IMG/VR virus record: IMGVR_UViG_3300021085_000152
Coordinates: 1 to 28,854 of that record
Direction: 5' to 3' (one strand)
Source of the DNA: a virus
Length of the DNA stretch: 28,854 bases
Shown piece after piece: positions 67 to 9,300 of this stretch. Each line of letters begins with the position of its first letter. The first letter of the stretch is position 1. The notes beneath the pieces are model-generated. The model searched no databases. It was not told where the DNA came from and worked only from the letters and a program-made list of their open reading frames with translations. The position numbers were made by a program, and so were the translations under genes.

Positions 67-100
67 AAAAAAGCCGATGCAATTAAGTATCGGCTTTTTT
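67..100. terminator. bidirectional intrinsic terminator between convergent transcription units
   Basis: The arms AAGCCGAT (71-78) and ATCGGCTT (89-96) are perfect inverted repeats around a 10-base loop. An A run on the left (67-72) and a T run on the right (95-100) extend the pairing and give a U tract on both strands. It lies 17 bases after the stop of the rightward gene and about 40 bases past the last leftward small gene. It can therefore end transcription arriving from either side. Confidence 0.85.
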
Positions 101-141
101 ATTATAGAATATTCGAGGTGTGGTCGCCTGTTTTGTTTATT

Positions 142-222
142 CTATTTGTTTTTCTTTTTAAACATTAGGAAATATAATAATGAGTTCCATTCGTGTTTAA
201 TCTTTGCAATAATTTTTTTCAT
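142..222 (-). CDS. 26-residue basic peptide, last gene of the late operon
   Basis: A short open frame of 26 codons begins with ATG at 222-220 and ends with TAG at 144-142. Its start overlaps the stop of the holin-like gene as ATGA, a typical translational coupling arrangement. The peptide begins MKKIIAKIKHEW, has a short hydrophobic centre (SLLYFLMF) and ends in KKKNK. It therefore looks like a small amphipathic or membrane-associated cationic peptide. I do not recognise a family. The overlap and the position directly before the operon terminator argue for translation. The very small size and AT-rich sequence mean it could still be chance. A role next to the holin in lysis is only a guess. 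Confidence 0.4.
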   Translation of the reverse strand: MKKIIAKIKHEWNSLLYFLMFKKKNK

Positions 223-395
223 TTTTTTCTTTTTTTATATTTATCTTTGTTTTTGTTTAGCAACCACCACTTATGAGCGGTGTATCCAATACTTATAGCA
301 AGCAAAAGTATTTTTAAAACCATATCAACTTGTGACATTGACACGACTAGTGTTCCAAAGTTTAATGCGTAAATTTTCAAATCTGATATATTCAT
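219..395 (-). CDS. putative holin, small one-helix membrane protein
   Basis: This 58-codon gene starts with ATG at 395-393, overlapping the TGA stop of the giant gene as ATGA, and ends with TGA at 221-219. Residues 1-24 are polar to mixed. Residues 25-40 form a hydrophobic helix (MVLKILLLAISIGYTA). HKWW follows at about 41-44, and the tail from 47 to 58 is almost entirely lysine, arginine and asparagine. One membrane helix with aromatic interface residues and a strongly basic cytoplasmic tail is the usual look of small phage holins, which permeabilise or depolarise the inner membrane at the end of infection. Similar small proteins commonly sit at the end of late operons in marine flavophages, from memory. 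No endolysin is visible beside it. Coding status is well supported by the overlap and composition; the holin role is inferred. Confidence 0.72.
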   Translation of the reverse strand: MNISDLKIYALNFGTLVVSMSQVDMVLKILLLAISIGYTAHKWWLLNKNKDKYKKRKK

Positions 396-3300
396 TTTAG
401 GGAGTTTTTTCTTTTTTTATTTTGTAATTCTATTATCTTATCTATTCTGCTTTCTTCTGTATTTAACGCTCTTATTTGAGTTTTAGATAAGCCATTATTC
501 CATAAAAAATCTACTTGCTCTTTCTTACTAAGATCTTTTAAAACCTTTCTTTTCTTCTCCACTGCAGGTGTATACTGTTTTTTTTCTTTTTTAGGCCTTT
601 CAATTTTAGGCATTTCCTCTATATCTTCGCCTTTGCTAAGAGCCTCCATGTCTTTATCAAATTGCTTTTTATCTTGAAGCCCCATGATCTTATCTATTCT
701 GTCGGATTCTTTTGAAAGTTTTTTAATTTCTGTTTTAGATAAGCCTGAATTCCAAAGTATGTCAATTTGTTCTTTTTTACTAAGCTTTTTTAATACTAAC
801 CTTCTTTGCTCGGTAGGATTAAGCTCTTGAAACTTTTTGTCAGCTTCTAGTTCTTTGAACCTTTCTTTATTTTCTTCTCTTTCTTTTTTCGTATCCTCTT
901 CCGACATCAGCTGCCACTTGGGCCAGCCTAAAGCTATTAATGGTTTCATCCACGTTTCCGTTTCATCGCTAGCTATATCAGCCGCATCTATAGCCATACC
1001 TTGCGCGCGATCTAATGGCAGACCAGTTAGGGCAGCAACAGTATTTGTAGCAGCTGTTACATAAGGGTGCTTTAAAGACATTTTGTCAAACTCTATTTCT
1101 TTTTTTCCCCATTCAAAAGCATTACCAACCTTTCCCGCTTTACTTAACTTACTTGATATAGGAGGAGATATTTTCATTACCTCATCTTTTATAGTTGCTG
1201 CCAAGTCTTGATTCCTGGTTTTTTGACTTCTCTCATATAGTTTTATAGCTAAATTTTTTGCTACAGAAACAACAGCTCCCGCTACACCAATACCTCTTAA
1301 TATACCGTCAGTCATAGAATTAGCAACTTTGAAGCTTTTCTTAGCTATATTAGCTTCTTTTGCTTTTGTAAGTTCTTCAGTTTCTTCGTCTTCATCATCT
1401 CCCATCATAGCAGCGAACATAGCCTGTTGCAAGAAGTTAAACATAACATTTTGAAGAACGCCATAATATACTATCCTAGATAGATGTGTCTTAGCATCTC
1501 CTCGGCCATTCTTAAGATCCTGAGCGGCTCTTTTTATTATCCTAGCATATTGCGACGGCGTGTTAGCAAAAGCTAATATAATGCGTCCTATTGGCTCCGC
1601 TTGTTGTTTGGATATCTTACTTGGATCACTTGATTGCTGAGACACTTCCGCGGTGGCTACAAAATCCTGCATCGCTTGTTTCTCAGCTTGCTCTAACGTA
1701 TATCCGGTCCCATTAATAGTTTTCTCGTTTAAGTAAGTGTTAACCCTGTTTCTATAGAATGAAGCTCCCCCTGTTGCAATAGCGGCGCTATCTGCCATCT
1801 TAGTTGGTATAAATCCTACTTGCAAAATCTTTGCTAATACACCTTGAAATCCGTTTTCTTTAGCTGTCGTAGCAATATCTGCTTCATTAACGTTAATCTT
1901 TAATCCGTCTCTTCTGTCAACCAGATAATCCGAGTTCATTAGCATTGTCCAATCTTTCCAGTATTGCGGCTGATTAGCGAATGCTTTACCCGCTTGGTAA
2001 AGATTATTACCTTCAAAGTTAATAAAGTTAGTAAAAGATATTAACTGCAGCACAGCGGATCTTCTGTTCAAGAACATGATATTACCTACAGCAGCGTTTA
2101 ACCATCTAACAATGCCGTCTGTAACGTTGTTGTTCGTAGGTGTAGAATTTCTACCTGTACGCATTCTTCTTAAAGAATCTTTCAATGCGGTTACATAAGA
2201 TTTACCATAAGCAGCCTCTAGCTTATTTAAGTTAGTAGGTGTAAATATAGCGTCAACATTTTGTTGCCATACTTCTAACAACTGTTTTCTACCATCGGTA
2301 TTTAATGTATTAAGTAAATCGGACGTTATCGTTCCCGCCGGCCAACTTTCTGTTGGTGCTTTTGGATCAACATTTTTATTAAGACCCAATAGTTTGTCAG
2401 CAAAAGCTTTTAAATCGGGGTTGGAGTTAACATAATTAACTAATACGGGTAGATCAACATTAGATAAACCGGGAATTTCAAATCCCTGTGCATCCCAAGT
2501 GTATACTCTTATAGCATCCTCTTTAGTAAAAAGACTTTCTTTCATGTTGCCATTTTCGTCTTTATACTTAAAACGCTTTTTAAGCTTTCTAGGTACAATA
2601 CCTAAATCCTTTTTAAGGGCTCTATAGTTTTTACCAATAGTTATTCTACCTGTTCTTAAACCACTAATTGCTTTGCCGTAAGGATCTAATAAGTGCTCTT
2701 TGTAAAAGGCCATAGCTGATTCACCTTTCTTGCCTTTAGGCAGTGTAGTATATAACAAGCCTAAGAAGTCTTCAGCAGTTGGAGGCACAAAGAATTTAAA
2801 CCTACCTTTTCCAGCACCTTTTTTAGCCGCTTTAACAGATTGATATTCTTTAAATGATTCTATTCCGGATTCTTCTTCAATTATTTGATTGAATCTTTTG
2901 CTGAGATCAGTGCTAAGACTAATCCTTGCTTGCTGAACTTTACTTTTTACATCGAGCTGCGACAGAACATCTTTAACAGCTTTTACATTACCAATATGAT
3001 CGTCCGCAAAATAAAAGTCGTTGTAGCCTTCTGCAAATTTATTAACCACCCAGTTAGCTTTTGCCTGCGGGTCTGAGTTGGCAAGGCCAGTAATGTTAGC
3101 AAGAGGTATGTCAAGGCCAATACCTTTTAAAAATTCGTGTATAGCAAGAGCACTGTTAGCGGGTCTAGCTGTTAATATGAATACATTTTCATTACCAAAC
3201 TTCTTATTTCGAGCCATAGCTTTTTCAAAGAATGGTCCTTTTTCGCCTTTAACAACTTTACTAAATTCACTGAAATCAAATTCAGCTCCTTGTGCCAATA

Positions 3301-6300
3301 ATTCGTCTCCGTATTTTGCAAATTCTTCAGCGTTCAGTTTATTTTGTTTTACAGCTACCGCAGATTCTTTTACAATTCCCTCGTTGCGTTGCTTATAATC
3401 CGCAGATCCTATTAATTTTTTTGCGCTATCAAAAGGAATAACAGCTTCTGCCATCAAACTTTTTTTGTTAGGATTATAACTGGGCCCCTCTTTATAAGTT
3501 ATGGAATCAAACCCTTCGCTTTTTAAGATGCTTAAATATTCTTTATTTCTTTCAGAAATAGATATATCTTTATTTTTAACAGTACTTTTAATGTCATTTA
3601 AAAGATCTTGGTAGGTCTTAAATTGTTTAGGATTATTAGCAGATATAGATACAGCTGCAACTGTTCCCGTGTTATCTTTTCTGTTTCTATGATCTATAAA
3701 AGACTTTGCATTATCTAAACTTTTTGTATAATGCTTGCCCAGCCCTTGCATTTGAACACTAAACGAGGATGCTCCCTCTGGAAAATCTTTAACTATTTCT
3801 TTATTTACAAATTTTTGGTCTACTACTGCAGAGGTGCCATGGTAGTACACTGTTTTTTGCTTAAATAAATTATTAAATTCCTTTTCTGTAACTTTAGATG
3901 GAGCCCCAGGCATTGTATATAATACACTGCTTTTAGTTTTAGCTAAAGTATCATCAAAATCCCAAACGCTAATTCCTCTAGTTTCTTGATCTAAGCTGTT
4001 ACCTAAGGTTATCGCTTTATCAAATGCTTCCGCATTTTTTAAAAACTCAGAATTAGATTCGCTTTTGCTAATAAGAGCTTTAGGCATTAGCTTTTGATTA
4101 CCTAATGTACTTGCATTATTTGTTTTTAGCAATAACGCTGCTTCTTTGCTTTTAGCCAAGTTTAAATTTGTTTGGCTAGCTAAAACTTTTTGAGATTCGG
4201 TTGAAAGCTCAGGTGTAGCTGTTCTTGTTATTGTAATTCTTTTGTTGTTTTTAAAGTAAGGTCTCCAATATGTTTTAACACTAACATCTACTCCTTTTTG
4301 TTCAAGATTTGGTGCTTGAAACATATTTTTATTTCCTACGTTAAATAATCCTACATCACCAAAATTAATAGCATCCCCTTTTTTTCCGGCGTAGTACTGT
4401 GAAACATAAGCAACGGGCAAATCTGTTTTTATTTGAGACTCTTTAAACCAACCTCTTTTCTTTAGCCCAAAGTAAGCATCATAAGTTACCTCTATTTTTC
4501 TTCGACGTGATTTAGTATTGTATGTAACAAATATATCGTTAGGATATAACGCAATTGCTTCCGTTAAAGACTCTTGCGTGATTTTTGTTTCGTTTTTTAT
4601 TAGCTTCTGTCTATATTTTCCGTCAATGCCGTTATATTTTTCATCAAGATAATATCCTTTTTTAGCATCAAAATGTATTCCCAAAGAGCCTAGTCTAGCC
4701 TTTAGATTCTTTTTAACTTCTAAATTAACTTCTTTCCCGTCAATTTTAAAAGTATAATCTAGCTTTGAAGAATCTTTGTTTAACTCTGTTTGTGTTATTT
4801 TTAATCCAGGAATTGATTTTTCAAGATCTTTAAATACATCTATAATTTTTTGTTCTGCATCGGGCCATTCAGCTTTTTGAGAGCGTTCCCACTCTTTTTT
4901 ATAGTTGTCTATAAAGGGTTTTAACCTAGCGTAAACGCCTGGCTCAGAATTTTCTTTTAAATCAGTAATATTATTATTTATAGCCGTTATATTTCTTTCA
5001 TTTGTTATGCCAGCAAGAAGAATTATTTCTTGATCTGTGAGGCTATTAACTATGTTGTTAGAAAGATTTATACCTTTTTCCGCTAGGCTAAACATCATTT
5101 CGTTTTTACCCGCAGCAATATCTTTTTTAGTCATAGGATCAAGGTCAGTTTCCGTTCTACTGAGCTCGTTGGTAACCATTCTACCTGTTAACTTTATTAA
5201 TCCCAATAAAGTTTGACCTTCTCTATCTCTACCGCTAATACTTGGTTTTTTTACAACATTACCATCTGCATCCACGGTTGCTCCAATAGCCTCATATATT
5301 TCTTCAATAGTAAGTTTTTGTGCCGTTCTTTCTACGTTACCAATACCTGTAGTTTTTCTACTCTCAATTTTATAAGCTAACTCCATTAAATTTTTAGGTA
5401 ATCCAGTAGATTTACCTGAGAATCTACCTTTACGGCCGCTTGCATAAACATAATCATCCGCACTTGTTTTAGGTAAAAATCTTATCAACGCTTCCGCTAT
5501 AGATTCGTTAGCTTCTCTTTTAAAGCTAAAATCTTTATTAGAGGCTCTTTGTTCGTTTAATCTATCCTGGAATGCTCCAACTTCAGATATAGGAACTCTG
5601 ACCTCTTTTTTCTTACCATCTTCTTTTATTGTAAATACAGCTTGCTTTCCCGTGAACGCTTCAATAGCATTACGATAATCGCCTTTGTTTAGGTTACCTG
5701 ACCTAGCAGCTAAAGTGCTTTCTGTAACACCAAACATTTCTGAAAGAATATTGTTTATAAGGTTAGGCAGCTTTTTAAAGTTTTCAACTTTAGTATTACC
5801 TTCGTTTTCTTTCCAAAATTCTTGAATCTGTTCTTTTGCTTGGCTGTATCTGCCTTCTCCAGCAAGTAGAGCCGACACTTTGCGTTTTTCGTCGCTGGTA
5901 ACGGAATCTGCATCGGAGCTATCAAAAGAAGTGTCAACGTCGTCCGCTGCTATTTTAGTTAAAGCCTCTGCTCCCCTAGCAACTCCTTGATCTCTGCCTA
6001 CAACACCTAATCTTTCAGCTAAGTTTCTAAGGCGTAGTCCCCCTCTTTGAAATACAATATCTTCAATGTCATTAATGATATTTTCACCTTGTCTGTTTAT
6101 CGTTTCGGGTTTAAATTCATTTATGGTTATACTCGTAATTTCAGCTCTTGCAGATTGCATAAACTCTTCTCGAGTTACCGCAGTTTTAGCATTATCAGAA
6201 ATCCTATCATAATAAAGTCTGGTGAATAAATTAACAGCTTTGTCAATAGGCGTTTTTAAAGCTTCAGCTATTTCTTTTTCAAGCTTATTAAGATCAGCCG

Positions 6301-9300
6301 GCTTTGCAACCCTTCTTGGGTTGTTTTTAAGTTCAGCTATTCTTTTATCCTTTTCAGTTCTTTTTACTTCCTTATCAGGTATTGCTTCGATGTCAGCTAT
6401 TAGCTTTTTGTTCAATTCTTTCTCCTGTTCAATTAGCTTTTTATTCGCTGCCTGAGCTTTAGCTATTTTAGGCTCTAACCCTTTTTTAACCTCCGTATCC
6501 AACGAATATCTTCTTTTGGACTTATCAGCCTTTGGTCTTTGTATTTTCTCCTTAGGAGCAGCTTCTGTAGCCTCCACAGGTGCATCAGCAGCTACTTCTG
6601 CATCTTCCTCTGCATTCTGTTCTTCAATCAATGCTTGATCATAAGCGGCTTCCGCTTTCTCAACGTTTTGCTGTAAAGTAGGGTTGTCAAAATCCTCGTC
6701 TCTTAAAGCTTCTGCTTCTTCTAACGCAGCTAAAGCCGCATCTGATTTAGTTGTATCTAAAGATAATGCAATAGGCGTTGGAGGTGTTTTCTTAGGAACT
6801 GTTGGTCTTTTAGCAATTAAACTTTCTACTTTTCCAGTACCCTTTGCTTCTGCTAATTTACCTTTAGCCCCTTGCTTTATTGTAGCCTTAATGCTTTTGC
6901 TTAATCCTTTTCCTTTTACTACACTCTTGTTATAATCCTCAAGAAACTTAAATAAATCGTCTTCTGTGTTAAATTCTATAGGTTTACCCGTAATGGCTTT
7001 GTATGCATCACTAATTAAATCCTTTATTTTTTGTATAACGCCTACATTTTCTTTAACTAAGCTCATGTCTCCATCAAGCATAGCCTCTCCTAAAACAGTA
7101 AATACTTCTTCAGCTAGTTGAGCCTGAGTGTAGTCTCCTCTGTCGGCCATTCTTTGGTACTCAGCCATTCGCTTACCAAATACACTTGATTCAAATGAAG
7201 CTACATCTCCGTACGCGGATTGAACAGCTTGCAGTAAGTTTGTACCTAAGTTTATTCTTTGCTCAGGAGTCATAACGTCTTGTAATACCTTGTGCAATAT
7301 TTCATGTGCAGCTGTATTATTTTTCAGTTTACCCCCTTGCTCTGCTTTTTCAAATAACAATTGCTCATTTATTATAACAAAGGGTTTTTCCCCTTTTTTA
7401 GCTGCGGGTGCATAAGCTCCATAAGCGGTTTTTACTCCATCTGCTTGGCTACTTGAATATCCTTTTTTCTTTATTATAGTCTCAAGTTCTTCGTTCGTTC
7501 CAACAGATACATACTCTGTATCGGAGTCAATATCAGCGCTTTTTAGTAAAGATTTTCCTCCTTTGTTCATTTTATCAACAGCAGCAATATTGCCTAGTTC
7601 TACGTCAATAGCTTTTATTCTATCTTTTTGAGATGTAACCATTTCAGGGGCAACGCCTTCTATATCATTCTGTATTTTTTGTTTTTCAAGTAATAGATCA
7701 AATGCTTTTTCTCTACTTGTTTCACTTAAATTTTTAGGTAATTTAAACCCGGTGGTTCTAGCTAAATTTAAAGCTTCAAGCTCTTCTTGGTATTCTTCTT
7801 CGGTAATTTCATTTAGCTCGAATTTGTCTTTTAAATTTGTTTCTGCTTTTTTGAAAAACCCGTTTACGGCTTTTAATTGATTACCATACTTTCCGAAATC
7901 AAATCTAGTAGCAACAGCCCTTGCTGAATTTCTTAATTCTATTCTTGACTGAGCCATTACATTACCTCCAAAAGGCAATACAAAACCTAATGCTCCACCC
8001 GCTATTGCGGATTCTTTTATTTCTTCAAAGTTTAAATACTTTCCGGCTCCATCTAATTGAGATCCCAAAGTAACTTGACTAGCTACAGTTTGGCCTACCT
8101 CTGTAAGAGCTTCACCTAAACCACTTTTAACGTTTTCAAACGCTTGCCTACCTCCTTGCTTTACTATCTTTTTTATTTCCCCTCTAAATAAACTAGCGCT
8201 TCCCTTAACAATGTTTTCTCCTAAGTTAAGAGCTTTTAGTGTTCTTTTAGCTACCTTAAGACCTCCTATTTGCTCTAGTCCAGCAGAAATAGCTGCTCCA
8301 GCTACAGCCGTGGCTTGATTAGCATACTTGCCTTCTTCAAGTGCTTTAATTATATTTTCATCGGTAACTTCAATTTTGTCGTTTATTAATCCCTGCTCAA
8401 TAGCTCCTATATAGTTTGCGCCGTATTCTGTGGTAAACATAGACATGAAACCTAAAGCCGCAAACATAGGGTTGCCTGTTAAAGTTGTTGCAGCTGTACC
8501 GGCTATAGCAGCCGTCATTTGCGGAAGAGATTCACCTAAAAGCATGGTCATATCATCGAAACTTATTCCATCTTTTAAGTCAGCAGCATTGAACAAAGAA
8601 ACATATTTATCGACTTCCCCAGCTTCCTCAAGGTCAAAAACTATAGAATCCATAGCCTTTTTTTGTTCTTTCTTAAGCCATGCTAATTTTTCTTCTACAG
8701 TTCCACTAAAAGTACGTTGACCGGTTTTTGGATTTACATTTCCCCAGGTAGCTTTATCGGTAAGATTTATACTACCGCCTTTTAAGCCTTTTTCAATTTC
8801 TCCAATTCCCCCTACAGCTTCTTTTAAATTATCTTGAGCAAATCCTACTTGGGCTCGGTTAAAATCACCTTGCATCATTTTAATACCCTTGTAGACCGAC
8901 TCAGTAAGCACCATAGCTGTACTGGATTCTCCACCTCTTGCAGCTGCTACTCTATCAACGTAAGATAAAAAAGAATCTTTACTTCTTCCAAATTGCTTTT
9001 TATTATCAGCAGCTACTTCATCTATAACTTTATAAAGCTGAGATCTTGTATTTTGGTATGTTGGTGAATTATATACCGGCTCTAAAACTAATTCATTTAA
9101 TGCCTCGTTATATTCTTTAACAGCTTTTTCATACTGAGCAGGGTCGCTAGTATCGTACTTTTCTTGAAGTTTTTTTACAACTTCAGTCATTTTATCTTTA
9201 CTAGCGGCTATATTTACATTAATATCAAATTGCAATATAGGATCCTCTTGCATTACCTTAGCAATAGCTACATCAGTAGCTTTATCAAATTGCTCAGGAG

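Follow-up and report, generated by a model that had tools for sequence, protein, structure and literature searches.

In enzymes of the HAD superfamily the C0 and C1 caps sit between the two strands of the flap, and it is the caps that set substrate specificity (PMC12632274). ADP-ribosyltransferases (ARTs) are divided into H-H-h, H-Y-[EDQ] and R-S-E clades, the first of which consists mainly of RNA-repair and small-molecule enzymes (PMC9503650), and the ARTs of polyvalent proteins are of the H-Y-D type (PMC5512222). HAD phosphatases also occur joined to kinases in bacterial Pnkp1 and in the T4 polynucleotide kinase-phosphatase, where the two domains lie in tandem. Among phage ARTs, T4 Alt is a head-borne enzyme of the R-S-E clade that acts at entry and is not itself nested in a HAD. 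Nested enzymes are uncommon. C1 caps, polyvalent ARTs and kinase-phosphatase pairs are each already known; in the open literature that we searched, we found no report of an ART nested in a HAD flap, of a kinase nested there, or of such a swap site in phages.

Here we analysed a DNA stretch of 28,854 bases (the window), a virus record whose source is a marine bacterial virus and which encodes a giant protein of 3215 aa. Sequence comparisons and structure models show in this protein a Pnkp-like HAD with an ART-like domain nested in its flap, which is a slot for exchangeable cassettes; as an overall reading we consider likely a chain with two putative activities, predicted to be delivered with the virion.

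The giant protein and its HAD domain

The genes upstream of the giant ORF were typed with PHROGs as terminase, portal and other virion structural or tail families (Table 1). The portal is 40-50% identical to those of Flavobacterium, Cellulophaga and Maribacter phages and of the uncultured record MW202828.1, which has a 3859-aa giant protein at the same gene position. Its giant size, its gene position and the ART, the HAD and the HExxH and nuclease-like motifs found in it suggest that the window's protein may be a polyvalent protein; a Pfam scan of the insert, the HAD and other segments of it returned no match above cut-off. Moreover, tblastn searches of isolate phages with the window's insert (insert A) and with an uninterrupted HAD matched nothing, and such a HAD was not seen in the stretches examined from three cultured or named relatives of the capsid module.

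Table 1 Positions in the window of the giant protein, its HAD and the ART-like insert
Feature	Residues	Window positions	Strand	Basis
Giant polyvalent-protein-like protein, 3215 aa		392..10039	-	ORF translation; follows the terminase, portal, capsid and tail genes as the last gene
HAD first half: strand 1 with motif I DFDDT, first flap strand VLYTMPG	2027-2031 (motif I)	3905..3976	-	Alignment, model
Insert A: ART-like domain, 188 aa, at the tip of the flap hairpin	2046-2233	3341..3904	-	Absent in 232 of 290 homologues; profile-profile comparison; model and fold searches
Histidine of ART strand 1 (YHGT)	H2067	3839..3841	-	Aligned with His in 21 of 21 rows, 18 of them fetched with a pattern that already included this His
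ART tyrosine column and the next residue	H2103, Y2104	3728..3733	-	Alignment
Candidate ART acid, column uncertain by one	E2198	3446..3448	-	Alignment
HAD second half: second flap strand KLNAEEFA, motifs II, III and IV	T2290, K2327, D2346/D2347	2945..3340	-	Alignment, model

A first-pass annotation, made from the letters alone, had proposed that an ART splits a HAD inside this protein. The motifs that it quoted were found at the residues it gave, with DFDDT at 2027, VLYTMPG at 2039, YYHGTS at 2065, GLGKHYTKS at 2099, AEAVIPFD at 2197 and NKLNAEEFAKYGDELL at 2233. In an alignment of 49 rows (residue numbers are alignment numbers plus 1999) D2027, D2029, T2031, T2290, K2327, D2346 and D2347 are invariant, and the patterns of all four HAD motifs were present in 283 of the 290 distinct HADs among the loci listed.

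In an AlphaFold2 model of a 401-residue segment the HAD was predicted confidently (core pLDDT mostly >90), and the matches returned by VIA were mostly HADs, which bears out a Rossmannoid HAD fold. Its best match among solved structures was 4xru_D, the phosphatase part of Pnkp1 (Z 10.5), with other HADs next. Specifically at the sequence level, the polynucleotide kinase family phrog_415 matched both an uninterrupted copy of the HAD (E 1.9e-7) and the second half of the window's HAD (E 2e-6). Foldseek with the whole-segment model gave nothing significant, and sequence profiles against the PDB gave chance matches only. The fold is thus nearest to Pnkp1, with a modest similarity at the profile level, suggesting a predicted role in the processing of nucleic-acid ends together with an exchangeable second enzyme. 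We also noted about 27 extra aa after HAD motif IV in the other carriers of insert A, L001 and L002, a segment that the window does not have.

The flap slot in related viruses

Residues 2000-2400 were used as the query of a family search that returned at least 80 loci from viral contigs, and further scans with other family members brought the number of distinct HADs measured to 290. As one of these scans was aimed at a kinase insert and others at different insert-bearing members, each scan being limited to at most 80 loci, the insert counts given here describe the loci fetched and not prevalence. Among the loci listed, 232 of the 290 HADs were uninterrupted and 58 carried inserts. The uninterrupted HADs have a loop of 4-5 aa (12 aa in two of them) where the window has 188 residues, and the spacing from motif I to motif II was 75 residues in most of the 80 loci listed by the first search versus 259 in the three ART-bearing relatives, the latter being about the same as in the window. 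On both flanks of the insert the 49 rows align cleanly, the uninterrupted copies reading ...VLYTMP-DGTxG-KLNAxEFA..., with the loop replaced by the insert in the window. The proposal that the flanks are halves of one HAD was thus borne out by those 232 homologues. In the AlphaFold2 model the insert is flanked by strands at segment residues 39-44 and 232-237, and by alignment and model the insertion loop is the tip of the HAD flap, the known position of C1 caps. The four HAD motifs and an insert between the two flap strands are what this family shares with HADs that carry C1 caps; it differs from them in that the inserts appear to be complete enzyme-like domains of unrelated folds, exchanged between phages.

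Besides versions with and without the window's insert, which the annotation had suggested surveying, at least five other types of insert were found at the same slot. Type A, the ART-like insert of 188-189 aa, is present in the window, in L001 and in L002/L003, which were counted as one. Type B (203-207 aa, 30 copies among the loci listed) is a P-loop kinase, and the two copies scanned matched AAA_33 (E 2.7e-11 and 1.1e-14) and Zeta_toxin (E about 1e-10) above the curated cut-offs. Like Pnkp1 and the T4 enzyme, the type B relatives join a P-loop kinase to a HAD phosphatase, but with the kinase nested in the flap of the phosphatase and not in tandem; the window has an ART instead. In several of the kinase inserts (for example L109, L112, L110 and L020) Walker A ends in GSGKG instead of GSGKS, and some type B kinases may therefore be altered.

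Type C (136-144 aa, 10 copies among the loci listed) is a second ART family, which matched a viral ART profile with a probability of 96 and, in four of the five members scanned, PF18760 at E 9e-4 to 0.046, below its cut-off. Most copies keep the His, the Tyr and the acidic residue; in L115, L120 and L154 Asn and Phe replace the His and the Tyr, and the acid is missing from L012 and L154. Because some type C copies lack catalytic residues, an ART-like domain in this slot can apparently become inactive. The remaining inserts are type D (48-52 aa, helical by eye, 14 copies among the loci listed), type E (152 aa, L143, with a weak match to DUF6934) and type F (74 aa, L318). The type D segment was also seen some 30-80 residues before motif I in giant proteins whose slot is empty, in L009 (residues 1534-1573) as well as at other loci, which gives the impression of a segment that has changed places within these proteins.

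By sequence comparison the flap slot is a cassette site, and as related viruses have it either empty or filled with different domains, the phosphatase has the look of a socket into which interchangeable modules fit. The sharp ends of the insert inside one domain are what an assembly chimera or an intein would also produce, an origin to which we give almost no credence, since the frame is open throughout and several unrelated inserts occupy the same site. A chimera was rejected on finding the same architecture in the window and in three other contigs, two of them distinct, and an intein on the lack of Cys or Ser at position 1 and of a His-Asn end followed by Cys, Ser or Thr.

The window's insert as an ART-like domain

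Insert A alone had no match in Pfam at E up to 10, so that the curated cut-off of PF18760 (ART-PolyVal) was not reached, and a genome-contig scan for it found no relative. A DNA pattern built from its YHGT and GxGx[HY][YF]T motifs retrieved 35 viral loci, and all four of the ARTs fetched in this way that were scanned were PF18760 members above cut-off. Against a profile of nine such viral ART sequences insert A scored 45.5 with a probability of 92, the maximum over 100 column-shuffled versions being 19. As the search pattern had come from insert A itself, the part after the selected motif was tested separately, and it scored 29 against a shuffled maximum of 19.

The insert was poor in the first AlphaFold2 model (pLDDT about 27-52), for which only near-identical relatives were to hand. 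With ART rows added, a model of the insert alone reached pTM 0.69 and pLDDT 68, large parts of its core lying at 80-95; its 50 best Foldseek rows against the PDB were all PARP/ART catalytic domains (best E 4.9e-4), VIA matched it to PARP10 (Z 8.0), followed closely by other PARPs and by the catalytic domain of diphtheria toxin, and several of its best matches among predicted viral structures are annotated as PolyVal ARTs. As the added rows had been fetched with the motif pattern taken from insert A, the fold evidence leans partly on them; the profile evidence is independent of the model. Together these comparisons support an ART-like nature for insert A. The prediction for residues 2000-2400 that the annotation had suggested gives a confident HAD, and the separate model of the insert with ART rows added is PARP/ART-like; the annotation's placing of an ART-like domain at the flap (C1) cap position agrees with the uninterrupted homologues, the profile-profile comparison, the models and the fold searches. 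With ART-PolyVal the insert shares a setting in a viral multidomain protein, the YHGT, GxGx..T and GFDS motifs and a PARP-like fold, whereas its nesting in a HAD, a His in the tyrosine column and the lack of a Pfam match of its own set it apart.

The annotation had read the catalytic residues as H2067, Y2104 and E2198. Of these H2067 stands, as does E2198 to within one residue of the PolyVal acid column, on which the alignments disagree; in all four alignment modes it is H2103 that stands in the column where PolyVal ARTs have their tyrosine (GxGxYFT, the counterpart of GIYFA in PARP1), and Y2104 falls in the next, Phe, column. By the H-Y-[EDQ] pattern the His is present in insert A and the Tyr is not, and the triad reads H2067-H2103-E2198 by alignment, with the acid uncertain by one residue. 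NAD activity is therefore not assured.

One reading to be weighed is that catalysis by the ART fold has been lost or altered and that the phosphatase uses this domain as a lid, which gives it substrate specificity or senses a ligand. The His in the tyrosine column of all A inserts and the type C copies with Asn and Phe would fit such a role, as would the general part played by caps in HAD specificity (PMC12632274). We find it rather doubtful, given that insert A retains H2067 and an acid, that most type C copies keep all three residues, and that insert A is only slightly diverged between distant phages.

The H-H signature read from the alignment also raises the idea of a KptA-like ART that clears 2'-phosphates while the HAD clears 3'-phosphates in RNA repair. 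ARTs of the H-H-h clade are mainly RNA-repair or small-molecule enzymes, and in some phages the gene of an ART-like sirtuin repair enzyme adjoins that of a HAD phosphatase (PMC9503650); moreover, the HAD is Pnkp1-like and kinases are inserted at the same slot. The third residue of insert A is however a Glu and not hydrophobic, its closest sequence profiles are PolyVal ARTs, and KptA was absent both from the listed fold matches of the insert model (Foldseek and VIA) and from a Pfam scan of the insert (PTS_2-RNA, no match at E up to 10, one scan and so a weak test). We regard this RNA-repair pairing as unlikely.

Exchange of the inserts between phages

L001 and L002 carry inserts that are 92% identical to the window's, versus only about 57-67% for the flanks and 67% for the second half of the HAD. 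At third codon positions the window agrees with the same two loci at 87-88% within the insert, at 43-45% in the second half of the HAD and at 34-44% beyond it. The nearest relative of the window's HAD among the matches listed is instead L004, 88% identical in the second half, whose slot is empty; nucleotide matches between the two cover positions 94-3289 and 3907-4049 of the window, with only the insert region between them. These sequence comparisons show that the insert passed horizontally from one phage lineage to another; the two conserved halves of the HAD probably served as arms for homologous recombination.

Exchange is also apparent across the family. A FastTree tree of the HAD second half, built from the sequences available before the last scan, requires 20 changes of insert state, at least 13 of them on well-supported branches, with 2 changes for type A, 3-4 for B, 7-8 for C and 3-5 for D, counts that are rough because of the few columns (132) and the method used.

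This mobility is what would be expected if the flap tip merely tolerated recombined modules, the ART working independently of the HAD and sharing its delivery. Unrelated modules at the same site, an insert history uncoupled from that of the HAD and the description of polyvalent proteins as multidomain effectors (PMC5512222) all agree with this reading, whose chances we put slightly short of even. Set against it is the place of the inserts, which were found in the flap loop, the site on which the survey centred and the canonical cap position adjoining the HAD active site.

Predicted function of the two domains

Under the reading that we favour, a HAD and an ART delivered in one chain, the giant protein would be carried in the virion and ejected together with the DNA. 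The HAD would strip phosphate from nucleotides or from the ends of nucleic acids. The inserted ART, dependent on NAD, would act in the early phase of infection on a target close by: a nucleic-acid end, a nucleotide or a protein of the host. A single delivered chain could in this way supply two end-processing or modifying activities, the second of which would be swapped as hosts and their defences change. Delivery, phosphatase action, NAD-dependent action and the cooperation of the two domains are all steps that we infer.

Since kinase inserts adjoin a Pnkp1-like phosphatase, end processing is the most economical common theme. A published proposal on the repair of RNA in phages connects HAD phosphatases to NAD-dependent enzymes (PMC9503650), whereas PolyVal ARTs are thought to modify host proteins, which counts against a shared end-processing theme (PMC5512222). 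A wider proposal, that the flap is an enzyme socket into which unrelated catalytic folds are swapped to work with the phosphatase, including an inside-out polynucleotide kinase-phosphatase, is one that we put forward only tentatively. For the study of how modular proteins evolve, a single cap slot that takes several enzyme-like domains of unrelated fold and bears traces of their recent exchange amounts to a natural experiment. Whether caps can be catalytic partners could be tested on it directly, and it hints at how phages may renew delivered effectors while the carrier stays.

Other features of the giant proteins

The N-terminal third of the window's giant protein has a metallopeptidase-like HExxH motif, AHEILHK (residues 911-917, window 7289-7309, minus strand). 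Upstream of the HAD lies a sequence resembling a PD-(D/E)XK nuclease core, DYTFKIDGKEVNLEVKKN (residues ~1738-1784, window ~4690-4830, minus strand), and a similar stretch also precedes the HAD in L071. In four relatives (L015, L016, L024 and L033) a second copy of the stretch that directly follows the HAD (query residues 354-401) lies about 460 aa downstream, a sign that a further large insertion may separate the HAD from the remainder of the protein. Finally, two similar units with the pattern LSKKEQxDxLWNxGLSKTxI (residues ~3082-3214, window ~395-800, minus strand) suggest an internal duplication in the C-terminus of the window's giant protein.
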